From positions 1-48,873 of the forward strand of contig JAHFCT010000025.1 in the NCBI GenBank assembly GCA_023249375.1: a DNA stretch of 48,873 nucleotides, read 5' to 3'. Position 1 is the first letter of the stretch; every line of letters begins with the position of its first letter. The notes under the pieces were generated by a model. The model did no database searches, was not told the DNA's origin, and worked only from the letters and a program-made list of their open reading frames with translations. Below, piece after piece: positions 13,939-35,773 of this stretch. Source of the stretch: Gemmatimonadota bacterium (lineage in GTDB: Bacteria > Gemmatimonadota > Gemmatimonadetes > Gemmatimonadales > Gemmatimonadaceae). The position numbers and the translations under genes were made by a program.

Positions 13939-15246
13939 TCACGAGGCGATCAACTGTTCGAGCGTGTCCGCGAACCGGTCGATCTCTTCTTCGGTAGTGT
14001 AGAGATAGCACGAGGCGCGGGCGACAGCATTCTCGCCGAAACGCTGCAGCAGCGGCAGGCTCGCAAGATCACCAGCCCGGATCGCGATACCCTGCGCGTC
14101 CATGGTGCGCATCACGTCGAGTGGCGTCCTGTCCTTCACGGCAAAACTGAACACGCTCACCCGATGCTGCGGTTCGGCAGAACCGAGCAGCCGCACCTGC
14201 GGGATTCGCGCCAGACGCACGAGCATGCGTCGGTTGATCGCCTGCTCGTGCGCCGCGAGGGCGTCGAATCCAATCCCGCGCAGGAAGGCCATGGCGGCGG
14301 CGAGCCCCACCGGCCCGGACGCGTTGGGTGTTCCCGCGCCGAACTTCAGCGCACCGGCCGAGAGATGCAGCGCGTCGAGTCCGACGTCGTGCGCCATGTT
14401 CGAGCCGGTCTGGTAGGGAGGCATGGCCTCGAGGAGTTCGCGACGCCCCCACAGCACGCCGACGCCCATCGGGCCGCACATCTTGTGACTCGAGAAGGCC
14501 ATGAAGTCGCACCCCAAGTCCTGGACGTTCACCGGGACATGCGGAACAGACTGGGCCCCGTCGATGACGACGATGCGACCCGGCCCGCGAACCGTCGTGC
14601 ACATCTCGCGTACCGGGTTGATCATGCCGAGCACGTTGCTGACGTGGCTGAAGGCGACAATGCGGGTGCGCGCGGACAGCTTGGAGACGAGGTCGTCGAT
14701 GCGTGGACGACCACCGTCATCCACGTCGAAGTAGACCAGTCGCGCTCCGCTGCGCCGCGCGAGGTACCGCCAGGGCAGCATGTTCGAGGCGTGTTCCGCC
14801 ATGCCGATGAGGATTTCGTCACCGGCGTGCACGTTGGCATCGCCCCACGCGGAAGCGACGAGATTCAGTCCGTCCGTGGTGCCGCGGGTGAACGTCACTT
14901 CGAGCGGATCACTGGCGCCAATGAACGACGCAACGCTCGCGCGGGCCCCCTCCACGGCGGCGTTCGCCCGCCGTGCGAGCGTGTGCAGCGCCGCCGCCGG
15001 ATTGGCGTTGTCCGTACTGTAGAACTTCGCCACGGCGTCGATGACGGGTTGTGGCCGCAGCGAAGTCGCCGCGGTGTCGAGGTACGCCAGCGGGTGTCCT
15101 TCGATGCGCTGCGACAGCGCGGGAAAGGCAGCACGCCAGTCGCGAACGGTGGGCGGCGGCGACGACGTGATGCTGCGCTCACCGAATTGCACGTTGGCCG
15201 TCCCGACGATCCCGGTCGCCACGCCGAGGAACTCACGCCGCATCAT
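13939..15246 (-). CDS. Tat-exported class V aminotransferase-fold protein lacking the SufS cysteine
   Basis: A 435-residue PLP-dependent protein of the NifS/SufS/isopenicillin-epimerase group. The N-terminus 'MMRREFLGVATGIVG' has a twin-arginine motif. The fold is intact: 'YLDTAATSLRP', 'EVTFTRGTTDGLNLVA', 'EHASNMLPW', 'VVIDGAQSVPH' and the PLP lysine in 'FSSHKMCGPMG'. Where SufS has its catalytic cysteine (RAGxHCAQP) this protein reads 'RAGDLASLPLL', so desulfurase activity is unlikely. Start 15246 is preferred: AAGG sits nine bases before it and the Tat motif begins there (15243 and 15252 are alternatives). It is upstream of the ChrB-fusion gene, possibly in one transcript. Substrate unknown. 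Confidence 0.82.
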   Translation of the reverse strand: MMRREFLGVATGIVGTANVQFGERSITSSPPPTVRDWRAAFPALSQRIEGHPLAYLDTAATSLRPQPVIDAVAKFYSTDNANPAAALHTLARRANAAVEGARASVASFIGASDPLEVTFTRGTTDGLNLVASAWGDANVHAGDEILIGMAEHASNMLPWRYLARRSGARLVYFDVDDGGRPRIDDLVSKLSARTRIVAFSHVSNVLGMINPVREMCTTVRGPGRIVVIDGAQSVPHVPVNVQDLGCDFMAFSSHKMCGPMGVGVLWGRRELLEAMPPYQTGSNMAHDVGLDALHLSAGALKFGAGTPNASGPVGLAAAMAFLRGIGFDALAAHEQAINRRMLVRLARIPQVRLLGSAEPQHRVSVFSFAVKDRTPLDVMRTMDAQGIAIRAGDLASLPLLQRFGENAVARASCYLYTTEEEIDRFADTLEQLIAS

Positions 15247-30760: not shown

Positions 30761-31810
30761 CTACGCCGCGGCCGCCGCCGCGGCCGGCACCGCGCGCGCC
30801 GCCTCGAGCAGATCGCCGAGCACCGCACTCGCCGTCGCGTTGCCGCCCGCGCCCCTGCCCTGCAGCCGAAGCACGCCGAGCGAATCGCTGTCGATGTGCA
30901 CGGCGTTTTCCTCATCACGCACCCGCGCGAACTCGTGATCCGCGGGCACGATCACCGGCCGCACCCACGCGCGCGCCGTGCCATCCTCGCCGCGCACCGC
31001 GCCCGCCAGGTACTTGAGCACGCCGTGTCGCGCGGCGGCCGCACGCGCCGCCGGTTCCGGATCGGCCGGAAGCGGTTCGACGCGCACGGCGAGCGTTGAC
31101 GGATCGACACCCCAGGCAAGCCACGCGAGAATGCGGATCTTGTCCGCGGCATCGAGCCCCTGCAGGTCGCGCGAAGGATCGGCCTCCGCGAACCCCTTGG
31201 CCTGCGCGTCAGTGAGCGCGTCGGCGTAGCGCGTGCCATCGGCGAGCGCCGTGAGCAGAAAGTTGGTGGTGCCATTCAGGATGCCGGTAATCGTGCGGAC
31301 GCCGTGTCCGCCCAGTTCGCCGCGCAGCGTGCGCACCACGGGAACGCCGCCGCCCACCGCGGCCTCAAACTGCAGCGAGCCACCGTGCGCATCAGCCAGC
31401 GCCTGCAGCGCCGGACCGTACGCCGCGATGAGCGCCTTGTTGGCGGTCACCACCTGCCGCCCCGCCGCCAGCGACTCTCGCACGACGCGCTCGGCGGGGT
31501 CGAAGCCGCCAATCGCTTCGACCACGACGTCGGCGTTGGCGAGCAGGAACTCATCCACCGACGACGTCAGCAGGTGGCGGGGCAGCGCAACGCCACGGTC
31601 CTTGGCCGTGTCGCGCACGAGGATGCGCACGAGTTCAAAGCGAACGCCGTGACGCGACTCGAACAGCGCCTGGTGCCGGCGAATGAGCGCCACGAGCGAT
31701 GCACCCACCGTACCGCATCCGGCGAGCGCCACGCGCACCACGCGGGGGGCGCGTACGGAAACCGCAACTGAAGTCCGCAGCGACGCGCGGTCGATTTCGA
31801 TGGTGGTCAT
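30761..31810 (-). CDS. hom: Homoserine dehydrogenase
   Basis: Reduces aspartate semialdehyde to homoserine, the precursor of threonine and methionine. The 349-residue protein has the NAD(P) motif 'LAGCGTVGASLVAL', 'VVTANKALIA', 'FEAAVGGGVPVVRTLRGEL', the signature 'GILNGTTNFLL' and 'AEADPSRDLQGLDAADKI' with the catalytic Lys/Asp region. There is no C-terminal ACT domain, so allosteric threonine feedback is not evident. The C-terminus ends in an Ala run. ATG 31810 overlaps the metX stop, so it is coupled to metX and shares its leader regulation. Confidence 0.95.
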   Translation of the reverse strand: MTTIEIDRASLRTSVAVSVRAPRVVRVALAGCGTVGASLVALIRRHQALFESRHGVRFELVRILVRDTAKDRGVALPRHLLTSSVDEFLLANADVVVEAIGGFDPAERVVRESLAAGRQVVTANKALIAAYGPALQALADAHGGSLQFEAAVGGGVPVVRTLRGELGGHGVRTITGILNGTTNFLLTALADGTRYADALTDAQAKGFAEADPSRDLQGLDAADKIRILAWLAWGVDPSTLAVRVEPLPADPEPAARAAAARHGVLKYLAGAVRGEDGTARAWVRPVIVPADHEFARVRDEENAVHIDSDSLGVLRLQGRGAGGNATASAVLGDLLEAARAVPAAAAAAA

Positions 31811-32814
31811 GCGACGTCCCTCGTGGAATCGGCGAGCGCCGCGCGCTGCAGCGCCTCGCGCAGGATGGCGCCCACCTGCTCGTGCTCCAGCAGGAAGGCA
31901 TCGTGCCCAAAGGTGGAACAGATCTCGCGATACTCGGCGCCGGCGAGCGCGGCCCACTGCCGGACGACGTCCGCCGAGTACAGCTGGTCGCCCGGGATTC
32001 CCACGGCGTACACAGTGCCTTGCAGCGCGCGCAGCGCGTGCGTCACTCCGCCGCGGCCACGGCCGATGTCGTGGGCATCCATTGCGTCGAGCAGCGTGCG
32101 GTACGACGCCGCGCTGAAGCGCGCGTCGAGCTTGCGTCCCTGGTGCTCGAGGTACGTCTCCACCGTGAAGCGCCCGTCGGATGAGACCGTGCGTCCAAAG
32201 CGCGCCTCAAACTCGCGCTCGCTGCGGAAGGCGATCATCGAGATCTGGCGCGCGAGCGCGAGACCCGCGTCGCCCGCGGCGTCGAGACACGCGCGCTGCA
32301 CGGCGTTCCACGCAATCGCATGGGCCGTGTGCGCCGCCGGCGCCGCGAGTACGGCCGTCGCGCGTGTGCGGCCGCTGAACGTGGCCGTCCACTCGAGCGC
32401 CACCATGCCGCCCAGCGATCCACCGGTGACGAGCGCGACATCGCACACGCCAAGCGATGCGACGAGCTGCGCGGCAAATCGCGCCTGGTCGCGGGGCGTT
32501 ATGCGGGGAAAGCGCCGATCCGGATAGTCGGAGGGGCCGCTCGAGCCGTAGCACGACCCCAGGAGGTTGGGGACCAGCACCGCGTACCGCGTCGTGTCGA
32601 GCGCGAGGCCAGGGCCGATCACGCGCGTCCACCAGTCACCCGCGGCGTCGGGCGAGCCGGTGAGGGCGTGGAAAACGACGATGAGATTATCTCGCCCGGT
32701 GTTGAGTGCGCCGTCGAGGTGATACGCCTGCGTCAGGTCGCGCAGCACCTCGTCGGACTCGAGCGTGAAGGACGGGATGTGCAGTGTGCGCAGGGGACGA
32801 TTGATGGAAGACAT
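31807..32814 (-). CDS. metX: Homoserine O-acyltransferase (MetX type)
   Basis: Activates homoserine with acetyl- or succinyl-CoA as the first committed step to methionine. A 335-residue alpha/beta-hydrolase: 'LIVVFHALTGSPDAAGDWW', oxyanion region 'NLLGSCYGSSGPS', nucleophile Ser133 in 'GGSLGGMVALEW', acid Asp in 'GIPGDQLY' and His in 'FGHDAFLLEHE'. MetX proteins may use either acyl donor; I cannot decide from sequence. Start ATG 32814 fits the family N-terminus; no clear Shine-Dalgarno. It is preceded by a 418-base leader with a SAM-II riboswitch, a Met-rich ORF and two terminators. Confidence 0.95.
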   Translation of the reverse strand: MSSINRPLRTLHIPSFTLESDEVLRDLTQAYHLDGALNTGRDNLIVVFHALTGSPDAAGDWWTRVIGPGLALDTTRYAVLVPNLLGSCYGSSGPSDYPDRRFPRITPRDQARFAAQLVASLGVCDVALVTGGSLGGMVALEWTATFSGRTRATAVLAAPAAHTAHAIAWNAVQRACLDAAGDAGLALARQISMIAFRSEREFEARFGRTVSSDGRFTVETYLEHQGRKLDARFSAASYRTLLDAMDAHDIGRGRGGVTHALRALQGTVYAVGIPGDQLYSADVVRQWAALAGAEYREICSTFGHDAFLLEHEQVGAILREALQRAALADSTRDVA

Positions 32815-32858
32815 GGCGTAGACACTGGAAAGGGGCACGGGCAGGGGCTGGCTGAATG

Positions 32859-32891
32859 CAAAACGGCCTTCTCCGTCGAGGGAGAAGGCCG
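32859..32891 (-). terminator. Second intrinsic terminator of the metX leader
   Basis: On the minus strand CGGCCTTCTCC pairs perfectly (11 bp) with GGAGAAGGCCG around a 6-base loop and is followed directly by TTTT. It ends 45 bases before the metX ATG. This is a textbook Rho-independent terminator placed in a 5' leader, which implies attenuation rather than gene end. Confidence 0.9.
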
Positions 32892-32967
32892 GATGAGTAT
32901 CGCGAACTGCTGTTCGCTTATCTCGCTGGAGGCGCCTCGATGCGCGCCACCGCCCGGCCGACTCCCC
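32878..32967 (-). promoter_or_regulatory. Possible antiterminator pairing in the metX leader
   Basis: On the minus strand GGGAGTCGGCCGG (within 32953-32967, in the leader ORF right after its last Met codon) can pair with CCGGCCTTCTCCC (within 32878-32893). This gives 6 bp, a 2x2 internal mismatch and 5 bp, plus flanking wobbles. The downstream partner is the 5' arm of the second terminator, so the two structures exclude each other. A 5-bp hairpin TCCCC-ATGC-GGGGA (32963-32976) would occupy the upstream partner instead. The pairing is visible; its use is inferred. Confidence 0.65.
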
Positions 32968-33034
32968 GCATGGGGACGCGGCACATGCACATGGGCATGG
33001 GCATGGACATCGGGCTGAGGTTGGCGAGTGGCAT
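32918..33034 (-). CDS. Methionine-rich leader peptide of the metX-hom operon
   Basis: A 38-codon ORF whose first 22 codons contain seven ATG Met codons and two Cys codons ('MPLANLSPMSMPMPMCMCRVP' then Met). It ends with TAA 27 bases before the second terminator stem. Met codons 9-17 lie just upstream of the segment that can form an antiterminator. This is the arrangement of ribosome-stalling leader peptides (compare his and trp leaders), here for methionine. No good Shine-Dalgarno precedes ATG 33034; an in-frame GTG at 33121 would give a 67-residue version with the same Met run. Confidence 0.7.
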   Translation of the reverse strand: MPLANLSPMSMPMPMCMCRVPMRGVGRAVARIEAPPAR

Positions 33035-33125
33035 GGAGCTATGCGGGGCGAGAGTGTGCAAGGTCGAGCAGTTGACGCTGCCTGCGGTGTTTCGTCCTTC
33101 GAGTTTCTTATCGGCACGCACCGCG

Positions 33126-33159
33126 AAAACAGAAAACCCGCGGAGACGATCGCCGCGGG
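33126..33159 (-). terminator. First intrinsic terminator, after the SAM-II aptamer
   Basis: On the minus strand CCCGCGG (33153-33159) pairs with CCGCGGG (33137-33143) and runs into TTTTCTGTTTT. It begins six bases after the aptamer. A competing helix CGATC/GATCG uses bases at the aptamer's 3' edge and puts the 5' terminator arm in its loop; this could be the antiterminator. Confidence 0.85.
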
Positions 33160-33165
33160 CAAGAT

Positions 33166-33217
33166 CGCTTTTTAGCTCTTGTTTAACGAGGCAGCAATAC
33201 GCGGCAAATGACCTCGG
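33166..33217 (-). ncRNA. SAM-II riboswitch aptamer upstream of metX
   Basis: The minus strand carries the SAM-II (metA/metX leader) pattern: P1 stem CGAGG / CCTCG (33212-33216 with 33187-33191) enclosing ATTTGCCGCGTATTGC, then TTAAAC and the conserved 3' segment AGCTAAAAAG that forms the pseudoknot. The order, spacing and invariant blocks (ATTT, CGTATTGC, AGCTAAAAAG) match known metX-associated SAM-II RNAs. It starts about 15 bases after the predicted transcription start. SAM binding is expected to lower metX-hom expression, here apparently through the terminator just downstream. Confidence 0.93.
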
Positions 33218-33238
33218 GGCACTTCGATTGTGAAACGT

Positions 33239-33267
33239 AGGCTAGCGGCCGTCGCGGGGATCGTCAA
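33239..33267 (-). promoter_or_regulatory. Sigma70-type promoter of the metX-hom operon
   Basis: On the minus strand TTGACG (33262-33267) and TAGCCT (33239-33244) are separated by 17 bp. The predicted start near 33232 places the SAM-II aptamer at the very 5' end of the transcript, which supports the call. Confidence 0.7.
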
Positions 33268-33275
33268 GCCCACCC

Positions 33276-33304
33276 CTGCCGGACACGCCGCCGACTCGTA
33301 CAAT
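33276..33304 (+). promoter_or_regulatory. Probable promoter of the S9 peptidase gene
   Basis: A good -10 TACAAT (33299-33304) with a weak -35 CTGCCG (33276-33281) at 17-bp spacing; the start would fall near 33311, 30 bases before the ATG. It is back to back with the metX promoter, the two -35 boxes being 8 bp apart. Confidence 0.45.
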
Positions 33305-33340
33305 TTCGGTGTCTGCTTCTCATCTCTTGAGCCCAGGTCC

Positions 33341-35773
33341 ATGCGTCTTCGACACCTTGTCCTCGTCGTGCTGGCCGCGCCGCTCGCCGCGCAGCAGCCC
33401 ACGTTCGACTTCAGCATCGCCAACATCATGCGCGGCCCCGAACTCTACGGCCGTGAACCGTCCAACATCCAATGGACTCCGGACGGCCAGTGGATCTACT
33501 TCCAGTGGCTCCCCGCAGGCAGTGGCTGGCGCGCGACGCTCAAGCCGTACCGCGTGCGCGCGCAGGCGGGCGCCAAGCCCGAACCGATCACCGAGGCGCA
33601 GATGGACTCCGTGGCGCCGCTCGTCGCCGACGGGGCGCTCTCGCCTGACCGCGCGCGCCGTGTGGTGAGCGTGCGTGGCGACCTCTTCATTGTCGATCTC
33701 AAGAAGTCCTCCGCTCGGCGCCTCACCGAGACGATGGCCTTTGAGAGCAATCCGCATTTCTCGCCCGACGGACAGCGGGTGCTCTTTCTTCGCGACGGCA
33801 ACGCGTGGAGCATTGAACTCGCCAACGGCTTCACGCGGCAGCTCACGGACATTCGCGGCGCCGATGCCGCCGCGCCCGCGGCTGGGGCGGGAGGCCCGGG
33901 TGGCCGAGGCGCGCAGGGCGGCGGCCGTGCGGGAGCTAGTGCGGCGGGTGCGACCGGCGGGCGCGCCGCGCTCGACACGCAGCGCGGCGCACTCGAACGC
34001 GACCAGCGCGTCCTCTTTGAGGTCATCCGCGATCAGGTGGCGGCCGACTCCGTGCGCAAGGCGGAAGGGGCGGCCCGTGATTCGCTGGGCATCAAGCCCG
34101 TGACGCTCGCGGCGGGCGAGCGGCTTGCGCAACTCTCTGTCAGTCCATCGGGCACCGCCGTGCTGTTCACCACCACGACCGCCGCCACCGACGCGCGTGC
34201 CGGCATCGTCCCGAATTACGTGACGTCATCCGGCTTCACCGAGGACATTCCCAATCGCACCAAGGTGGGCGATGCGCAGCCGCGCACGCGCCTTGGCTAT
34301 CAACTGCTACCGCGCGGCGACGTGAAGTGGCTGCGCTCCATCGATAGCGATTCGCTGATTGCCAACTCGCAGGTGATGACATGGAACGACGCCGGCACGG
34401 CGGCCATCGTCGCCGGATCGAGCAGCAACTTCAAGACGCGGCAGCTCTCCACGGTGGACGCCGCGACGGGAACGCTCAAGGCAATTGCCGTGATGCACGA
34501 CAGCGCGTGGGTGGGCGGTCCCTGTTCCTTTGGATGCTCCGGCTTCTACGACGGCGACCGCCGCGTGTACTTCGTGGATGAATCCACCGGGTGGGCGCAA
34601 CTGTATTCGACCGCCGCCGATGGCACCGACCGTCGCGCGCTGACGAGCGGGAAGTTCGAGATCTACGACGTCGACCTCTCCGCCGACCGCAAGAACTTCC
34701 TCTTCCACTCAAGCGAAGTGTCGGCGTTTGACCGCGACCTGTATCGCATGCCGTTTGCCGGAGGCGAGAGGCAGAAGCTCACCGTTGGCGCCGGCGGTCA
34801 TCAAGCCGTGCCCTCACCCGACGAGAAGCAGTTGGCCGACGTGTACTCCACGACGCTGCGCTCGCCCGACCTCTTTCTCGCCGGTGCGTGCCCCCCCGGC
34901 GCGCAGTGCAAGATGTCACCGCCAAGTCAGCTGACCGTGTCGCAGACGGCGGAGTGGCTCGCGTTCAAGTGGATCGATCCGGCCATCGTGATGATTCCGG
35001 CATCGGACGGCGTGCAAGTACCGGCGCACATCTACAAGCCGCAGGATGTCGGCGCCCAGCCCAATGGCGGCGCCGTGCTCTTTGTGCACGGAGCGGGCTA
35101 CCTGCACAACGTCGGGCATTTCTGGAGCCAGTACCCGCGCGAGTTCATGTTCAACAACTACCTCGCGTCCAAGGGCTACGTGGTGCTCGACGTCGATTAC
35201 CGCGCGAGCGCCGGCTACGGACGCGACTGGCGCACCGCCATCTATCGCTTCATGGGCGGGCGCGATCTGCAGGATCAGGTGGACGCGTCGACGTACCTCG
35301 AGAAGAACTTCGGCATCAATTCCGAGCGCGTGGGCATGTACGGCGGGTCGTACGGCGGCTTCATGACGCTGATGGCGCTGTTCACCGAGCCCAAGCACTT
35401 CGGCGCCGGCGCTGCGCTGCGCTCCGTCACCGACTGGGCGCACTACAACCACGGCTACACCGGCTCCATTCTCAATCTCCCGCAGACCGACACGCTCGCC
35501 TACCGCCGCTCGTCGCCGATCTTTCACGCCGAAGGCCTCGAAGACCCGCTGCTGATGCTGCACGGCATGGTCGACACCAACGTCAACTTCCAGGACATCG
35601 TGCGGCTGACGCAGCGGCTCATCGAACTCGGCAAGACCGGATGGGATCTCGCCGTCTTCCCGGTGGAAGACCACGGCTTCGTGCGCCCGTCGAGTTGGAC
35701 CGATGAGTACGGCCGCATCTTCGCGCACTTCGAGCGGACCATCGGCGCCAAGGGGAGCAAGGCCAAGCCGTGA
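33341..35773 (+). CDS. S9 family serine peptidase (DPP IV / acylaminoacyl-peptidase type), secreted
   Basis: An 810-residue exported peptidase with a signal peptide (residues 1-18, APLAAQ), a beta-propeller built of WD-like 'NIQWTPDGQWIYFQW' and 'NPHFSPDGQRVLFLRDG' repeats, and a C-terminal hydrolase domain. The triad is Ser670 ('GMYGGSYGGFM'), Asp745 ('HGMVDTNVNFQD') and His778 ('PVEDHGF'). A Gly/Ala/Arg-rich insertion (about residues 178-210) interrupts the propeller. It releases dipeptides or acylated residues from oligopeptides. Start ATG 33341 has GGTCC before it and begins the signal peptide. The stop overlaps the ybdD-like GTG. Confidence 0.95.
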   Translation: MRLRHLVLVVLAAPLAAQQPTFDFSIANIMRGPELYGREPSNIQWTPDGQWIYFQWLPAGSGWRATLKPYRVRAQAGAKPEPITEAQMDSVAPLVADGALSPDRARRVVSVRGDLFIVDLKKSSARRLTETMAFESNPHFSPDGQRVLFLRDGNAWSIELANGFTRQLTDIRGADAAAPAAGAGGPGGRGAQGGGRAGASAAGATGGRAALDTQRGALERDQRVLFEVIRDQVAADSVRKAEGAARDSLGIKPVTLAAGERLAQLSVSPSGTAVLFTTTTAATDARAGIVPNYVTSSGFTEDIPNRTKVGDAQPRTRLGYQLLPRGDVKWLRSIDSDSLIANSQVMTWNDAGTAAIVAGSSSNFKTRQLSTVDAATGTLKAIAVMHDSAWVGGPCSFGCSGFYDGDRRVYFVDESTGWAQLYSTAADGTDRRALTSGKFEIYDVDLSADRKNFLFHSSEVSAFDRDLYRMPFAGGERQKLTVGAGGHQAVPSPDEKQLADVYSTTLRSPDLFLAGACPPGAQCKMSPPSQLTVSQTAEWLAFKWIDPAIVMIPASDGVQVPAHIYKPQDVGAQPNGGAVLFVHGAGYLHNVGHFWSQYPREFMFNNYLASKGYVVLDVDYRASAGYGRDWRTAIYRFMGGRDLQDQVDASTYLEKNFGINSERVGMYGGSYGGFMTLMALFTEPKHFGAGAALRSVTDWAHYNHGYTGSILNLPQTDTLAYRRSSPIFHAEGLEDPLLMLHGMVDTNVNFQDIVRLTQRLIELGKTGWDLAVFPVEDHGFVRPSSWTDEYGRIFAHFERTIGAKGSKAKP

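Follow-up and report, generated by a model that had tools for sequence, protein, structure and literature searches.

The metX-hom operon of this Gemmatimonadota genome is probably controlled by two transcription attenuators in series, a SAM-II riboswitch with its terminator (T1) followed by a methionine leader peptide with a second terminator (T2); on the strength of sequence comparison and RNA folding, we put the probability of this reading at about 0.82. The window, meaning the whole stretch of DNA analysed here, comprises 48,873 nucleotides of contig JAHFCT010000025.1 and comes from an assembly of ~3.8 Mb (G000). Along the minus strand from 33270 to 32800, promoter, SAM-II aptamer, T1, Met-rich ORF and T2 follow one another in that order before metX-hom, and every part that a first-pass annotation of this DNA had listed was found at its coordinates on this strand. 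Two small corrections concern gene starts: metX begins at the ATG at 32814, and the start of hom, at about 31810, overlaps the stop codon of metX. The features of the locus are as follows.

33239 to 33267, minus strand: promoter, TTGACG (33267-33262), 17 nt, TAGCCT (33244-33239), assigned by sequence and comparison
33155 to 33225, minus strand: SAM-II aptamer (RF00521, SAM_alpha), 29.8 bits, E 1e-4 in a search of the 701-nt leader
33133 to 33159, minus strand: T1, putative SAM-II expression platform, stem 33159-33137 plus U tract, -17.1 kcal/mol, z -3.7
33034 to 32918, minus strand: Met leader peptide ORF, MPLANLSPMSMPMPMCMCRVPMRGVGRAVARIEAPPAR, 38 codons, seven AUG counting the start
32984 to 33010, minus strand: candidate control codons, five alternating Met codons at codons 9, 11, 13, 15 and 17
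32972 to 32982, minus strand: region 1, GCCGCGUCCCC, 5′ strand of the 1:2 hairpin, directly 3′ of the Met run and within the stretch that a ribosome at codon 17 would cover
32949 to 32968, minus strand: region 2, CGGGGAGUCGGCCGGGCGGU, predicted antiterminator strand and also 3′ strand of the 1:2 hairpin
32878 to 32897, minus strand: region 3, CUCAUCCGGCCUUCUCCCUC, T2 5′ arm and flank
32860 to 32891, minus strand: T2 (regions 3:4), CGGCCUUCUCC-CUCGAC-GGAGAAGGCCG-UUUU, stem 32891-32864, from a terminator scan, -22.3 kcal/mol, z -5.0
31807 to 32814, minus strand: metX, MetX-like homoserine O-acyltransferase (Pfam PF00561; best NCBIfam match TIGR01392 MetX_acetyl, E 4.5e-83, under that model's cut-off)
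30761 to 31810, minus strand: hom, homoserine dehydrogenase (Pfam PF00742 and PF03447; NCBIfam NF004976, above cut-off)

The aptamer aligns full-length to RF00521 (model positions 1-79) with no broken pairs, and the P1 stem, the conserved loop and the GCUAAA core are all present across the model. Because its score of 29.8 bits lies below the Rfam gathering score of 36, a scan of the entire window at that score lists no aptamer; an E-value search of the leader alone finds RF00521. Since the Rfam cut-off is a curation threshold, we take the window aptamer to be a divergent SAM-II member. The SAM-II call of the first-pass annotation thus has its covariance-model match, though one under the curated cut-off, and the family was matched in 58 of 60 related genomes, exceeding the cut-off in 44 of the 60. 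Among genomes of the same genus the aptamer core is identical or near-identical, and one of their sites (L062, genome G003) scores 36.3 bits. The setting is likewise that of a SAM-II riboswitch, with a promoter 5′ and a terminator and methionine/SAM genes 3′. In a crude test within this clade, the loop:tail complementarity of the P2 pseudoknot was no better than that of permuted partners. The T1 5′ arm (CCCGCGGC) is complementary to the aptamer loop GCCGCG, and across sites a loop of GCCGCC or GCCGCG complements a T1 5′ arm of GGCGGC or CGCGGC; own partners beat permuted ones, with 0 of 5000 permutations as good. This complementarity suggests the usual SAM-off transcription switch, with putative SAM binding and T1 control.

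Upstream of the aptamer, a TTGA-N18-20-TANNNT element precedes 89 of the 186 SAM-II aptamers, where 0.5 would be expected; a generic sigma-70 scan did not detect the promoter in the window. A divergent gene for an S9 prolyl oligopeptidase (window 33230-35773, plus strand; Pfam PF00326) has its start near 33341, which makes its promoter region adjoin or overlap the one in front of the metX leader.

The 186 distinct sites stem from a SAM-II census, a pattern scan of named genomes and 179 genomes of the family with flanks fetched, and nearly all of them are from Gemmatimonadota. Short ORFs in the 295 nt after T1 were scanned in 12-codon windows, with dinucleotide shuffles as the expectation. At least three Met per 12 codons occurred at 18 of the 186 sites against 0.27 expected, at least four at 9 sites (0.0 expected) and at least five at 5 (0.0 expected); the leaders of one genus are counted separately in these numbers, which are therefore not independent events, and other genera have unrelated peptides. 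Methionine was the most enriched residue; cysteine followed with at least four per 12 codons at 5 sites against 0.43 expected, and no other residue showed a comparable excess in this test. One of the 18 (L220, MRMRVRMRV) is an out-of-frame reading of a leader that encodes a run of Cys in the frame preceding cysH; it was reassigned to the Cys group, leaving 17. Two further loci (L182, L264) were unconvincing and were dropped. A second terminator was present at 17 of the 18 Met sites, compared with 19 of the 162 that had no Met; several of these 19 fall in coding sequence and appear spurious.

An in-frame Met run is kept in about 20 leaders, and the codons between the methionines differ; the start AUG of the ORF is conserved as well. 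An origin of the run as a CATG low-complexity accident is ruled out by the shuffles and by these changing codons. Met leaders occur in five genera of the family (g1, g10, g11, g13, g14) and also in another six named Gemmatimonadota contigs (L110, L112, L122, L123, L134, L150); examples are MRTIMSMTMRMMRMMRMTMRMTMRMTMRMTTASL (L022), MIISMRRMQMRMSMAAASL (L242) and MTLPFPKHMMMRRHDGMPMCGMSMC (L123), and in L134 the run reads MAGMGMMMM. The genes that follow them encode metX-like proteins, metY, hom, an ATP-grasp protein, a sulfurtransferase or a ThiS/ThiF pair, with metY, metX-like or hom downstream in most cases. The window leader thus combines a control-codon run for the amino acid that its operon produces with an intrinsic terminator between the ORF and the first gene, as leader attenuators do.

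Conservation in close relatives, which the first-pass annotation had expected of both the Met run and T2, is borne out, though not at every locus. Both are retained by four same-genus leaders (L061, L064, L065, L066), which precede metY-metX-hom, and by leaders of other genera; two other same-genus loci (L062 and L063, genomes G003 and G006) have SAM-II and T1 without a Met leader, which shows that not every locus has the module. In same-genus genomes G001, G004, G007 and G008, metY lies immediately 5′ of metX, and SAM-II, T1, the Met ORF and T2 stand before metY; their leader peptides read MSHSPTYLMPMYMCRLPFRGAGRVVARYEAPPTR, MLRPTPTPMPMYMCRLPYMGAGRGVARIEMPPAS, MPSPHLASMPMSMSMCRFPLGRDGRAEARGKAPPAR and MPHSPRTLMLMCMCRLPYMGAGRAEARVKAPPAS. 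The nearest metY-like protein in the window's own assembly is just 43 percent identical, and metY therefore appears to have left the window operon, so that the leader now abuts metX. This apparent loss, the 1:2 hairpin and the Cys-leader sisters described below are additions to the first-pass annotation.

The pairings around T2 have the form that attenuation would call for. Immediately 3′ of the Met run lies a hairpin of the form CCG..CUCCCC-loop-GGGGAG..CGG (1:2), for which 80 percent of cells are paired in a 17-sequence alignment, compared with 40-62 percent in slid controls. In the window, the duplex of region 2 with the T2 5′ arm reaches -27.3 kcal/mol, which 0 of 300 shuffles equalled, against -21.3 for T2 alone. 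Across 20 leaders, the antiterminator formed by each leader's own partners averages -27.9 kcal/mol against -23.4 (sd 0.7) for permuted partners, and none of 20,000 permutations was equal; the antiterminator-capable segments that had been noted at T2 are thus conserved as a site-specific pairing. In most leaders region 2 begins ~13-35 nt past the last Met codon of the run, which is where RNA exits a stalled ribosome. Both T1 and T2 greatly exceed shuffled sequences in predicted stability. T2 was also considered as a dispersed repeat, an idea rejected because its hairpin is single-copy in the genome even when 3 mismatches are allowed.

It could be that SAM-II and T1 alone regulate the operon, the Met ORF and T2 being either incidental or mere remnants, with T2 serving, for instance, as a generic terminator or the source of a short RNA. 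Most Gemmatimonadota SAM-II sites indeed consist of SAM-II and T1 and have no Met leader, and at L024, L247 and L251 a second hairpin occurs without a Met ORF. No clear Shine-Dalgarno sequence was seen by eye 5′ of the leader ORF in the window and several relatives, so that efficient translation of the ORF is an assumption. We nevertheless regard regulation by SAM-II and T1 alone as quite unlikely in view of the Met-run enrichment, the tight association of the Met ORF with T2, the site specificity of the antiterminator pairing, and the constancy of Met while intervening codons vary. Given the comparative evidence, a chance origin of the arrangement is very unlikely.

The serial-attenuator reading also predicts that the position of the ribosome should decide the fate of T2, and folding of the window is consistent with this. 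The modelled probability of T2 is 0.19 with Met17 in the A site and 0.96-0.99 at all other ribosome positions tested, and a scan of all codons with three footprints disrupted T2 only at codons 17-19, which comprise the run's final Met and the next two codons. The other leaders gave mixed results in equilibrium scans: several regain T2 once the ribosome leaves the Met run, four (L080, L110, L122, L243; full scan) do not lose T2 at the Met run, and five (L056, L061, L065, L134, L189) lose it also with the ribosome upstream of the run, so such cases would depend on co-transcriptional order. When the transcript was ended before the T2 3′ arm, the 5′ arm was held upstream with a mean of 0.81 at the last Met versus 0.29 at the stop, and held more at the last Met in 19 of 20 leaders, a contrast that is partly geometric. 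The models therefore place the alternative antiterminator pairing just past a ribosome at the control codons, more weakly at equilibrium for some relatives.

Taken at face value, these elements would work as follows. With SAM bound, the aptamer loop would be locked in the pseudoknot, leaving the T1 5′ arm free, so that T1 folds and transcription ends; with SAM absent, the loop GCCGCG could pair with the T1 5′ arm CGCGGC and T1 would fail. Transcripts that pass T1 would reach the ribosome-mediated attenuator, whose Met leader would be read by a translating ribosome. With Met-tRNA well charged, the ribosome would pass the Met codons, and either the 1:2 hairpin or the ribosome itself would hold region 2 off T2, allowing T2 (3:4) to terminate. 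If Met-tRNA is poorly charged, the ribosome would stall on the Met run and cover region 1, leaving region 2 free to pair with the T2 5′ arm (2:3), with read-through into metX-hom. Because the two terminators stand in series, we infer an AND logic in which the operon is fully on only if SAM and charged Met-tRNA are both low.

Methionine is not the only sulfur amino acid encoded in these leaders. Cys codons lie among the Met codons in many of them, within or beside the Met run (for example MCMCR), so Cys-tRNA may be read too, and a broader version of this idea is that the leaders read cysteine or sulfur amino acids generally. True Cys leaders of the same architecture do exist before cys genes. 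There are four such sisters (L220, L160, L161, L196), each with a second terminator after the Cys ORF, and three of them precede sulfate-assimilation genes. In Gemmatirosa kalamazoonensis (L220, G025:C2:1240790-1241750), recognised as such by an identical stretch of its plasmid, SAM-II and T1 are followed by an ORF with the run ECACACECGCEC, the hairpin CCCCGGCCGCUCGCCCAGAGCGGCCG and cysH; at L160 and L161 a Cys-rich ORF (CACMC...CCC) lies 5′ of an OsmC gene and cysN, and at L196 an STCCC run lies 5′ of a sulfurtransferase gene. Against cysteine as the general signal, Met leaders without any Cys exist (L022, L111, L112, L242, L243), Met prevails ahead of met genes, as Cys does ahead of cys genes, and the single UGC of many genus members sits in UGC-CGC, CCG being hairpin region 1; this broader reading of the Met leaders is accordingly unlikely. 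The Cys runs before cysH and the OsmC-cysN cluster instead appear to act as an internal specificity control, in that the amino acid of the run matches the operon type, as tRNA sensing predicts.

A further possibility is that T2 is controlled by sequence-specific nascent-peptide arrest or by a metal-sensing peptide (copper, for example) with Met and Cys as ligands and not as tRNA readouts. The MxMxMC motifs resemble Met motifs known to bind Cu(I), and the C-terminal end of the peptide is conserved within the genus; across genera the Met run alone is shared while the remaining peptide is variable, and the downstream genes are those of sulfur amino acids and not of metal homeostasis, which makes such a peptide sensor highly improbable compared with tRNA-dependent stalling.

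The census also turned up SAM-II sites of other kinds. Three (L081, L247, L251) have SAM-II and T1, then a hairpin GGCCCTCTC-GAGAGGGCC with a short T tract and metX-like genes, without a Met ORF; this hairpin is perhaps an attenuator remnant. Six (L056, L069, L080, L084, L089, L107) lie before a conserved ATP-grasp gene with a weak RimK-family match, three of them also with a Met leader, suggesting a putative sulfur-metabolism ligase. By eye, L117, L120 and L125 place SAM-II and a terminator before a panB-like start (ketopantoate hydroxymethyltransferase), an unexpected SAM-switch target. Divergent aptamers with the loop GATTTCGGGCAAATTGC (L067, L068, L070-L077, L079; 24-33 bits for RF00521) precede, in the genus concerned, a metH-like gene without a Met leader and could be a separate Rfam subfamily. 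At G011:C13, two SAM-II aptamers (14227-14302, minus strand; 14510-14583, plus strand) diverge from one intergenic region.

To our knowledge, methionine is absent from the amino acids for which leader-peptide attenuators are well supported, and this is usually explained by bacteria reading SAM instead, or uncharged tRNA by means of T-boxes. Classical attenuators (trp, his, leu, thr, phe, ilv) share with the present leader a run of control codons, the 1:2, 2:3 and 3:4 hairpins and a terminator before the first gene; they differ in that the control codon here is Met and lies behind a riboswitch terminator. SAM-II (RF00521) is known, for example, at metA/metZ of alpha-proteobacteria (PMC1273637, PMC9373788), and those riboswitches are alike in aptamer family, in the promoter just 5′, in the intrinsic terminator after the aptamer and in the met genes 3′, whereas here a second, putatively translation-dependent attenuator follows. 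Dual control by one SAM-II has been described, with no leader peptide attenuator (PMC9373788). Tandem SAM-II/SAM-V, double SAM-II and SAM-II/SAM-I-IV arrangements resemble the present locus in having SAM-II first with a terminator and a second regulator in series, but that second element is another aptamer for the same ligand, and the available portion of the source describes no amino-acid leader (PMC9481103).

Other systems share the methionine or cysteine input. A putative metL leader, MSTTSDRTPATEATTTPGARCMCRRMCAF, lies upstream of metNIQ in Streptomyces lividans (PMC8079986); it too is a proposed Met leader peptide and contains CMCR, but it belongs to another phylum and another gene, has three internal Cys and two internal Met, and is without a typical Rho-independent terminator or a coupled riboswitch. 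The Xanthomonas SAM-I riboswitch also senses uncharged initiator tRNA (PMC7270179), so that SAM and the charging of a Met tRNA are both sensed within a single met leader; unlike the locus here, this riboswitch does so by direct RNA-tRNA binding with translational control and no leader peptide. In Rhodobacterales, a Cys-codon uORF attenuator (uORFC-8-2) upstream of cysS works through ribosome-mediated attenuation at sulfur amino-acid codons (PMC8632094), with Cys instead of Met and no preceding riboswitch. No Met leader peptide coupled to SAM-II was found in the open-access full-text literature, in keeping with the first-pass annotation, which knew of none behind this riboswitch. Both sensor types are thus known; the Met leader, its serial coupling to SAM-II and the Cys-coded sisters appear to be new.

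Together, these loci point to what is probably a modular design in Gemmatimonadota, where an interchangeable leader attenuator stands in series behind a SAM-II transcriptional riboswitch and codes for Met before metY/metX/hom or for Cys before sulfate-assimilation genes, so that each operon would integrate the end-product coenzyme with the tRNA charging of its own amino acid. The Met leader, supported by many independent sequences and standing in series with a SAM riboswitch, would extend leader-peptide attenuation to Gemmatimonadota. By combining, in a naturally occurring hybrid, a ligand riboswitch with an attenuator that senses the ribosome, such an arrangement would separate the need for methionine in SAM supply from that in protein synthesis. 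These loci may also represent a family of two-input terminator modules provided by nature, in which Met or Cys codons could be swapped and which is testable in E. coli.
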